From Thermoplasmata archaeon (GTDB taxonomy: Archaea > Thermoplasmatota > Thermoplasmata > Lutacidiplasmatales > UBA184): DNA of 34,922 bases. The notes under the pieces were generated by a model. That model was not told the origin of the DNA. It was given only the letters and a program-made list of their open reading frames with translations, and ran no database searches. Positions 32,734 through 34,871 of this stretch are shown in pieces. The translations under genes were made by a program, and so were the position numbers. Each line of letters starts with the position of its first letter. Positions within the stretch are counted from its first letter, which is position 1. The stretch covers positions 1 to 34,922 of the forward strand of contig JAKAVY010000017.1 in the NCBI GenBank assembly GCA_021827405.1, in the 5' to 3' direction.

Positions 32734-33813
32734 TCACCGGGGCGCCGGGGCGGCCGTTGGGACCGGGGTCTGGGAGGCCGGACCGACCGCGTCGGCTGGG
32801 CCCGAGCCCTTTCTGGCCCGGGGAAGTCCCACGAGCTGGGCAAAGCTTCGCAGGGACCTACGGGAGCGCGCCGGGGAGAGGCCTCCGAAATCAAAGATGC
32901 CGAGCAGGTCCGTGATCCCGGTAGCCTCGATCTGCAAAAGCCTGCCCCGGATCTCCTCGGGTGTCCCGACCAAGGCGAGGCTCCGTTCGATCAAGCCCTC
33001 GGCGCTCGAGCCCTCCGGGTCCTTCCCCGCCCGGGCCGCATAATGGGTGCTTTGCGTGGAGAGGCGTTCGCCGAGATAGGTCCTCAGGGCCTCCACCCCC
33101 GGCTTCGGGTCCTCCCCGACGAAAACGTGAAACGCCGCCGCCACCCGGACCTCGAGCCCTGGGGGAAGGGCACCGCGGAAGAGGTCGACCCGGTCCTTGA
33201 GCTCGGAGAGACCGGACATGGAAGCGTAAGGGATCATGGCCACAGACAGACCTCTCCGGGCCACAAAGGGGAGGGCTTCCCGGCTCTGGACGGCCATCCA
33301 AAGGGGGGGGTGAGGCTTCTGGACCGGGTGGATATTGAGCCGGACCGACCCGCCCAGGGCACCCGGGGCGGGGAGCGGGTCCCCCCGGAGCGCCGAAAGG
33401 AGCTCGGGGAACCGTTCATCAAAGGCCTGCCTGCGTCGCTCCAGGTCCTCCCCGTACCCCTGGAACTCCAGGGGGATGTACCCGCTCCCGAGGCCGATCT
33501 CCAAGCGCCCTCCCGAGAGCCGATCCACGGTCAGGAGGGCTTCGGCCAGTTCCCGAGGCCGATGCAAGGGAAGGACCGCGACCAAGACCCCGAGCCGCAG
33601 CCTTCGGGTCTCCCGGGAGGCCGCTCCCAGGAAGACCGGAGGGGCCGGGAGGACCCCGCCAGGGTGGAAGTGGTGCTCGGCCACCCAGAAAGTCTCCAGG
33701 CCGTCCCGGTCCGCCTCCCGGGCCAACGCGAGGGCTTCCTCGTACCGGTCGCCTCCTCTTGCCGCCCGACGGCTGGGGTCGTCATCCAAGACGGAGAAGA
33801 TGGAGAAGCGCAT
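32734..33813 (-). CDS. LLM-class flavin-dependent oxidoreductase
   Basis: Bacterial luciferase-like monooxygenase, 359 aa. The barrel segments are clear: MRFSIFSVLDDD, TFWVAEHHFHPGGVLPAPPVFLGAA (first flavin-site His pair), RRLRLGVLVAVLPLHRPRELAEALLTVDRLSGGRLEIGLGSGY (the family's most conserved segment, split by me at residues), QKPHPPLWMAVQSREALPFVARRG, and a C-terminal LVGTPEEIRGRLLQIEATGITDLLGIFDFGGLS. The last 25 residues are Pro/Ala-rich. The cofactor may be FMN or F420; archaeal context makes F420 possible. The ATG at 33813 is 26 nt after the TATA-like cacgtatagc. It is convergent with the dienelactone hydrolase-like gene and divergent from the fusion gene. Confidence 0.92.
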   Translation of the reverse strand: MRFSIFSVLDDDPSRRAARGGDRYEEALALAREADRDGLETFWVAEHHFHPGGVLPAPPVFLGAASRETRRLRLGVLVAVLPLHRPRELAEALLTVDRLSGGRLEIGLGSGYIPLEFQGYGEDLERRRQAFDERFPELLSALRGDPLPAPGALGGSVRLNIHPVQKPHPPLWMAVQSREALPFVARRGLSVAMIPYASMSGLSELKDRVDLFRGALPPGLEVRVAAAFHVFVGEDPKPGVEALRTYLGERLSTQSTHYAARAGKDPEGSSAEGLIERSLALVGTPEEIRGRLLQIEATGITDLLGIFDFGGLSPARSRRSLRSFAQLVGLPRARKGSGPADAVGPASQTPVPTAAPAPR

Positions 33814-33935: not shown

Positions 33936-34757
33936 ATGCAGCTCCAGGGGAGGAAGGTGTATGCCGGGAAGGCCAGCGGGCCGGTGGCCAAGAGCACGAT
34001 CCCGCTCTCCTTCCTGGGGGAGATCGACCCCCTCACGGGTCGCGTGGACAACGCGTCCAGTGAGCTGAACGGGAGGACGTTGGGGGGTGCGGTCCTGGCC
34101 TTCCCGGAGGCTCGAGGGAGCACGGTGGGCCCCTACGTCATCTACGGGGCCGGGAAGCGCGGCGTGGGCCCGGTGGCGATCGTGGTGGAACGGGCGGATG
34201 CCATTGTCGTGAGTGCGGCGGTCATCGCGAGGATCCCTTGCGTGGAAGGGGTGGACATGGACCTGCTGGTGGATGGGGAGACCGTGCATGTGGACGGAGA
34301 GAAGGGAACGGTGGAGCTTCCCGGGGTGAAGGAGAGCCCGGTGGTCACGGCCTTTCTTAAGCGGGAGGACGGAAAGGTGCTGCTACTCAAGCGCTCCCAA
34401 AAGGTGGGATCTTTCCAGGGCCGGTGGGCGGGGGTGAGCGGCTACCTGGAGACGCCACAGCCGTCGGAGCAGGCGTTCCGGGAGATCGAGGAGGAGACGG
34501 GCCTGGGACGCCAGGATGTCCGGTTGGAACGGGCGGGCCCCACCCTCTTCGCTCGGAGAGGAGGGGAGGTCTTCGTGGTGCACCCCTTCCTGTTCCGGAC
34601 GAGCAGGGACAAGGTTCGGATCGATTGGGAGCACACGGAATACGAGTGGGTCGACCCGGCCGAGATCTCTCGCCGGGAGACTGTTCCCAAGCTGGACCGG
34701 GCGTGGCGTTCGGTGGCCCCGGGAGAAGCCGGAGGTGAGACCGACCCCCCCGCATGA
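33936..34757 (+). CDS. Fusion: aconitase-X swivel domain (phosphomevalonate dehydratase small subunit) + Nudix hydrolase
   Basis: A 273-aa protein with two domains. Residues 1-125 match the aconitase-X small subunit (DUF126): GRKVYAGKASGPVAKS, PLSFLGEIDPLTGRV, LAFPEARGSTVGPYVIYGAG, AIVVERADAIVVSAAVIARIP. In archaea this subunit pairs with a large subunit to dehydrate 5-phosphomevalonate in the modified mevalonate pathway; the conserved Ser in the GSTVG loop (61-65) is present. Residues about 136-270 are a Nudix domain: VTAFLKREDGKVLLLKRS, GRWAGVSGYLE, then the catalytic core REIEEETGL (172-180). The box is one residue shorter than the consensus between its Gly and REU core, and the Glu normally seven after Gly is Gln165. 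The frame is continuous with no sign of frameshift. The large subunit is not in the window. A tRNA gene follows. Confidence 0.9.
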   Translation: MQLQGRKVYAGKASGPVAKSTIPLSFLGEIDPLTGRVDNASSELNGRTLGGAVLAFPEARGSTVGPYVIYGAGKRGVGPVAIVVERADAIVVSAAVIARIPCVEGVDMDLLVDGETVHVDGEKGTVELPGVKESPVVTAFLKREDGKVLLLKRSQKVGSFQGRWAGVSGYLETPQPSEQAFREIEEETGLGRQDVRLERAGPTLFARRGGEVFVVHPFLFRTSRDKVRIDWEHTEYEWVDPAEISRRETVPKLDRAWRSVAPGEAGGETDPPA

Positions 34758-34799: not shown

Positions 34800-34871
34800 G
34801 GGCGCGTAGTTCAGCGGAAGAATGCCTGATTTGCAATCAGGAGGTCTCGGGTTCAAATCCCGACGCGTCCA
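34800..34871 (+). tRNA. tRNA-Ala (anticodon TGC)
   Basis: Full cloverleaf. The acceptor gggcgcg/cgcgtcc contains the G3-U70 wobble pair that specifies alanine. The anticodon stem cctga/tcagg surrounds loop tttgcaa, giving TGC (reads GCA). The T arm is tcggg-ttcaaat-cccga and the discriminator is A. CCA is not encoded and no intron is seen. A weak A/T box (aggatag) lies about 25 nt upstream. Confidence 0.97.

Follow-up and report, generated by a model that had tools for sequence, protein, structure and literature searches.

A fusion of the phosphomevalonate dehydratase small subunit with a Nudix domain is old and common in the archaeal class Thermoplasmata

The window analysed here, a stretch of 34,922 nucleotides of contig JAKAVY010000017.1 from a Thermoplasmata archaeon (assembly GCA_021827405.1), carries a gene whose 273-residue product joins the swivel domain of a small subunit of the aconitase-X (AcnX) type to a Nudix domain (Table 1). 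Both domains exceed their Pfam cut-offs in the same chain: AcnX_swivel_put (PF01989) over residues 24-103 scores 88.5 bits (E 2.6e-25; cut-off 27), and NUDIX (PF00293) over residues 135-249 scores 44.5 bits (E 1.9e-11; cut-off 21.1). The initial annotation, made from the letters of the DNA, had described the swivel-Nudix join in one continuous frame, an intact GSTVG loop and a Nudix box shortened by one residue and lacking the first Glu, and all three descriptions agree with what we find; the first Glu is replaced by Gln. A tRNA-Ala (TGC) lies shortly downstream of the fused gene (34800-34871, plus strand).

Table 1. The fused gene, its parts and its divergent neighbour, in window coordinates.
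Feature	Position	Strand	Basis
Fused gene, PMDh small-subunit swivel plus Nudix, 273 aa	33936..34757	+	Single open frame, ATG to stop; fusion recurs in 300-genome class search
Swivel domain, residues 1-128	33936..34319	+	End-to-end alignment with TK1248 (7cnr_B); PF01989
GSTVG loop, residues 61-65	34116..34130	+	Present in 50/53 intact-class fusions, 0/25 decayed
Short junction, residues 129-134 (~6 residues)	34320..34337	+	Near-constant interdomain spacing across 53 fusions
Nudix domain, Pfam residues 135-249	34338..34682	+	PF00293; AlphaFold; Foldseek
Nudix box, residues 169-190, GYLETPQPSEQAFREIEEETGL	34440..34505	+	Glu conservation in three groups of relatives
E232 of DWEH motif	34629..34631	+	96-100% conserved
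Luciferase-like monooxygenase, divergent neighbour of fused gene	32734..33813	-	Same neighbour in relatives

The assignment of the swivel half to the small subunit of phosphomevalonate dehydratase (PMDh), also made in the initial annotation, is well borne out. Among solved chains it is closest to TK1248 of 7cnr/7cns (E 3.8e-31 for 7cnr_B, query residues 2-128), which the literature uses as a reference structure for PMDh (PMC10040528). The match to the NCBIfam equivalog NF003046 (DUF126) spans the whole domain (residues 1-128 against model positions 2-129) at 125.7 bits, below the equivalog cut-off of 163 bits. A large subunit elsewhere in the genome, which the annotation had asked about, is encoded on a separate contig (G000:C59:3905-5089; PF04412, E 2e-124); it aligns with the Thermococcus kodakarensis large subunit (E 3e-84) and has Cys at all three Fe-S positions, in FSCTPY, AIGCPH and QDTCMV, as judged against the cysteines listed in PMC10040528. 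The end-to-end swivel, the GSTVG loop and the presence of a matching large subunit with three Fe-S cysteines are features held in common with archaeal PMDh (Aeropyrum pernix APE_2089 and T. kodakarensis TK1248). By contrast, small subunits of the APE_2089/TK1248 type are single-domain proteins of about 130 residues, to which the protein described here adds a Nudix domain, and the window's fused gene does not lie beside the large-subunit gene. The AlphaFold model of the swivel is poor (pLDDT below 50 over residues 24-89), probably because the alignment was shallow, and does not allow the domain arrangement to be judged. Just upstream of the large-subunit gene, an H+-pyrophosphatase-like gene was identified by eye; a similar gene lies within a few kb of AcnX in 8 of 20 other loci examined.

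Set against the pattern G-x5-E-x7-REUXEEXGU, the Nudix box deviates in its first part: the fused protein has neither the full 23-residue spacing nor the first Glu of G-x5-E-x7, and the stretch around this position is variable among its relatives. The catalytic REXXEEXG motif is present, and its glutamates E183, E186 and E187, together with E172 and E232, are conserved at 96-100% in the fused, decayed-swivel and standalone sets of relatives alike, which argues that the shortened box is a family trait rather than damage. E232 is a candidate for a further catalytic or metal-binding Glu. The predicted structure of this half is confident (pLDDT about 85-96 over residues 131-260), and the nearest solved folds found by Foldseek are 3grn (TM 0.82 by target length), the NudI-like 3n77 and BdRppH. 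A profile search of the PDB ranks MutT-related 3grn, NudI, CTP pyrophosphohydrolase, BdRppH and an Ap4A hydrolase at the top, with plant Nudix hydrolase 1 lower and as a partial match, and NCBIfam returns weak matches to several Nudix families, mostly NudI and dihydroneopterin-triphosphate diphosphatase. Enzymes of the MutT/NudI/RppH type (3grn, 3n77/3oga/6dt3, 3ees) are thus the best matches by profile and by Foldseek, with the predicted fold and the catalytic REXXEE in common. The Nudix half differs from them in having family motifs of its own (RSxKVGSFxGxWAGVSGYLE, VHPFLF, DWEH and TVPKL), a short box lacking the first Glu, a dehydratase subunit fused to it and scores below the NCBIfam equivalog cut-offs; the VHPFLF and DWEH motifs may also be shared by halobacterial Nudix-eIF2B/R15P-isomerase fusions. 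Among the candidate substrate classes, a nucleotide-type pyrophosphate appears the most likely, about as probable as all others taken together; isopentenyl or dimethylallyl diphosphate (IPP/DMAPP) or another prenyl diphosphate comes second and is on balance unlikely, and a substrate of another kind ranks third. A plasmid search for relatives of the Nudix half returned two bacterial matches only.

The fusion of the PMDh small subunit with a Nudix domain is genuine and of long standing, and it is widespread in the class Thermoplasmata. It is shared with a second species of the same genus (G101; 82% identity, residues 2-267), with further genera of the window's family (52-63%) and, along the entire protein, with numerous other families of the class (about 35-49%), each time as a single frame. 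At E<=1e-10, 216 of 300 class genomes have a match of any kind, swivel-only and Nudix-only matches included, and most among the matches listed are full length. The initial annotation had named the recurrence of the fusion in related archaea, and a frameshift or assembly error between the domains, as the points to be checked; the former is found across much of the class and the latter does not apply. An artefactual join, by misassembly or frameshift, or a chance fusion confined to a single genome, as the position of the gene near a contig end and the frequency of artefacts among single-MAG fusions might suggest, is next to impossible and is refuted by this recurrence, at about 35-63% identity across the class in independent assemblies that include single-contig genomes. 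At one locus (L151/L162, G222:C4:280678-281429) the fusion occupies two frames, the swivel with part of the Nudix and then the rest, a break that represents a frameshift or sequencing error. The fusion is undescribed in the open-access literature searched, a scope outside which most subscription journals and preprints lie.

The genomic setting varies across the class. Most other families have the AcnX large-subunit gene directly upstream of the fusion on the same strand (for example in G226:C8, with AcnX at 35946-37091 and the fusion at 35137-35919, both minus); in the window's own family the two genes are mostly apart, so that expression coupling is not obvious there. A wider search of the phylum found, in sister classes, a standalone swivel of about 130 residues and a standalone Nudix of about 135 residues, encoded on different contigs or far apart, the latter roughly 45-55% identical to the window's Nudix half (for example in G328, G408 and G347). 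Within the class, families f13, f15 and f24 have only a standalone swivel, adjoining AcnX. These separate genes and swivel-only families indicate that, before the fusion, the Nudix was in all likelihood encoded by a gene of its own. The genomes surveyed are incomplete MAGs, in which single absences carry little weight, and sampling outside the phylum was light, the search returning close relatives only. A plasmid-borne DUF126 match in Vibrio europaeus is unfused and adjoins an aconitase X gene.

The two halves have had separate fates. In genera g2, g4 and g7 of family f1 and in family f11, matches to the fused protein mostly start only at residue 70-102 or so, and the N-terminal part of these decayed forms is a shrunken swivel (hhalign against intact swivels, probability 98.7). 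The GSTVG loop occurs in 50 of the 53 sequences of the intact set and in none of the 25 decayed ones, a contrast that is not a blind test, the grouping having been made partly by hand from the match start. Its three exceptions are L099, with GSTAG in an otherwise intact domain, and L133 and L135, which look like early decay. Within f1, intact sequences (55 pairs) have a mean pairwise identity of 65% in the swivel and 49% in the Nudix; among decayed sequences (190 pairs) the corresponding values are 33% and 57%. The luciferase-like divergent neighbour is common to intact and decayed f1 genes, which indicates that the locus is orthologous and that the swivel decayed in place.

This decay goes together with the state of the pathway. 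Nearly all decayed-type f1 and f11 genomes tested encode a TIGR01240 decarboxylase and lack PMDh-type AcnX; f1 genomes with PMDh have no TIGR01240 decarboxylase. The exceptions, G254 with neither decarboxylase nor AcnX and G169 with an intact fusion and no AcnX, are MAGs that are 83-89% complete. TIGR01240 also covers the haloarchaeal phosphomevalonate decarboxylase, reported in Thermoplasmatota (PMC11052028), and the match in f1 and f11, which may be of this or another type, marks a decarboxylase route that took the place of PMDh. PF01989 was not detected in the tested decayed-type f1 and f11 genomes apart from single-chain AcnX in four g2 genomes. These four genes (L216, L217, L219 and L221, in G263, G272, G248 and G161) have a layout like that of cis-3-hydroxyproline dehydratase, in genomes devoid of PMDh-type AcnX, and were rejected as a surviving PMDh since each has its own swivel in the same frame. 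Families f2, f7 and f17 have a separate swivel, adjoining AcnX in f2 and f17, along with a Nudix-bearing copy in which the swivel is decayed or absent.

Reciprocal decay is seen within a single genome, G041, which has two paralogues. The one adjoining AcnX (L012, G041:C4) keeps the swivel motifs and carries R153Q, E183V, E186A, E187A and E232G in its Nudix half; in the other (L128, G041:C21) the swivel motifs are gone and the Nudix residues are retained. Such reciprocal domain loss after duplication is a clean case of the splitting of a bifunctional gene, and relatives in which one half is lost offer ready natural test pairs for the role of the Nudix. The retention of the Nudix where PMDh is gone and the decay of either half alone indicate that the domains are separable. 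In the Nudix tree, decayed forms stand at several places among fused ones with weak resolution; few columns and many open forks make the number of fusion and decay events a rough count. A fused Nudix lacking two key glutamates (E186K, E232S) occurs in L134 (G063:C52:5811-6560), and no second Nudix copy of the same family was found in G063 at E<=1e-4.

Comparison of sequences makes it very probable that the protein combines, in one chain, a small-subunit swivel paired with the G000:C59 large subunit and a catalytically competent, separate Nudix. The protein seems to serve two distinct tasks, one per half, rather than to act as a flux switch. The swivel would pair with the AcnX large subunit for the dehydration of mevalonate 5-phosphate, the Nudix half would be an enzyme in its own right, with a conserved task of its own and descended from a standalone gene, and the fusion would probably set expression at 1:1 rather than couple two reactions; we infer the formation of the complex, the activity of both halves and the Nudix substrate. 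Against this explanation stand the near-fixed length of the junction across 53 fusions and the persistence of the decayed swivel as a shrunken domain instead of its deletion, which suggest that the Nudix may still depend, in structure or in function, on its N-terminal partner. The mostly separate position of the fused and large-subunit genes in the window's own family, the NF003046 score below the equivalog cut-off and the poor model of the swivel also count against it. Completion of the archaeal mevalonate pathway is recent, and little is known of its regulation. The fusion, class-wide, apparently undescribed and involving a key enzyme of this pathway, is also a warning that a Nudix joined to a pathway enzyme need not imply control of the pathway.

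The initial annotation had proposed such a control, with one protein linking flux at the dehydration step to hydrolysis or sensing of a downstream diphosphate. In its full form, the Nudix would sense or hydrolyse a downstream isoprenoid diphosphate (IPP/DMAPP to IP/DMAP) and tune dehydratase flux, or, in the manner of plant Nudix enzymes, supply recycled IP to isopentenyl phosphate kinase. We consider this unlikely, although the fusion partner is a pathway enzyme, some f1 genomes have genes for isopentenyl phosphate kinase and type II isopentenyl-diphosphate isomerase (IDI-2) at a distance of about 10 kb, the standalone Nudix of one sister lineage lies near GGGP synthase and a geranylgeranyl-reductase-family gene, and structures of plant Nudix hydrolase 1 are among the profile matches. 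The Nudix persists after the loss of PMDh and the domains decay independently, to the point that each G041 copy keeps one domain only; the neighbours of the standalone Nudix are mostly non-isoprenoid genes; the structural neighbours of the fused Nudix half are nucleotide hydrolases; and the isoprenoid-making families f13, f15 and f19 have no such Nudix match. A more specific version, in which hydrolysis of IPP/DMAPP (or of a related prenyl diphosphate) by the Nudix yields the monophosphate and so closes an IP/IPP cycle linked with the dehydratase complex, is similarly doubtful; if true, it would be an archaeal parallel to the cycle of plant Nudix and isopentenyl phosphate kinase. Plant enzymes of the NUDX1 type (isopentenyl/geranyl diphosphate) belong to the same superfamily, with weak profile matches (about 8e-7 over about 65 residues), and would share their metabolic setting with the fused protein if the isoprenoid reading is right. 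They differ in that the Nudix here is fused to an upstream pathway enzyme, and a specificity for prenyl diphosphates, which has no sequence signature, is in this case only a proposal. Other neighbours of the Nudix include PINA-type ATPase, tRNA-modification and peptidyl-tRNA hydrolase genes, or PurQ-like genes. In L171, L174, L180-L183 and L186 the standalone Nudix is coupled to the PINA-type ATPase gene, and Taw2/Trm5-like, Pth2, GGGP synthase and geranylgeranyl-reductase-family genes lie nearby, varying by locus.

Far less probable is a role of the Nudix in yielding dimethylallyl phosphate for UbiX, the maker of the prenylated-FMN cofactor of the pathway's decarboxylase. Known UbiX chemistry fits such a supply, UbiX is present in 275 of the 300 class genomes, and in f17 it directly adjoins AcnX and the standalone swivel. 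The distributions of UbiX and the Nudix nevertheless disagree, which disfavours this role: several Nudix-bearing f11 genomes that are 95-97% complete (G008, G020 and G040) have no UbiX match, and the listed f19 genomes contain UbiX and no Nudix. The arrangement of UbiX beside AcnX and the standalone swivel (G015:C1:1618571-1620682 and G026:C1:2575587-2577698) suggests a dehydratase-prenylFMN operon.

That the Nudix replaces a missing isopentenyl-diphosphate isomerase, a need at which the initial annotation had hinted and which the lack of IDI-2 in the window's genus g1 and in genus g3 might create, is highly improbable and as an explanation of need refuted, since the window's genome encodes a separate type I enzyme (IDI-1; G000:C17:668-1141, E 1e-35, over the cut-off for its family), and IDI-2 is present in other fusion-bearing families and in 276 of the 300 class genomes. 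The C-terminal half has the Nudix fold in common with type I isomerases; unlike them, the fused protein is not matched by TIGR02150, for which the G000:C17 gene is the only match in the window's genome. IDI-1 genes of this type also occur in G101, G021, G041, G121 and G201, and g1 and g3 carry the type I enzyme in place of type II, the rest of the family having mostly type II.
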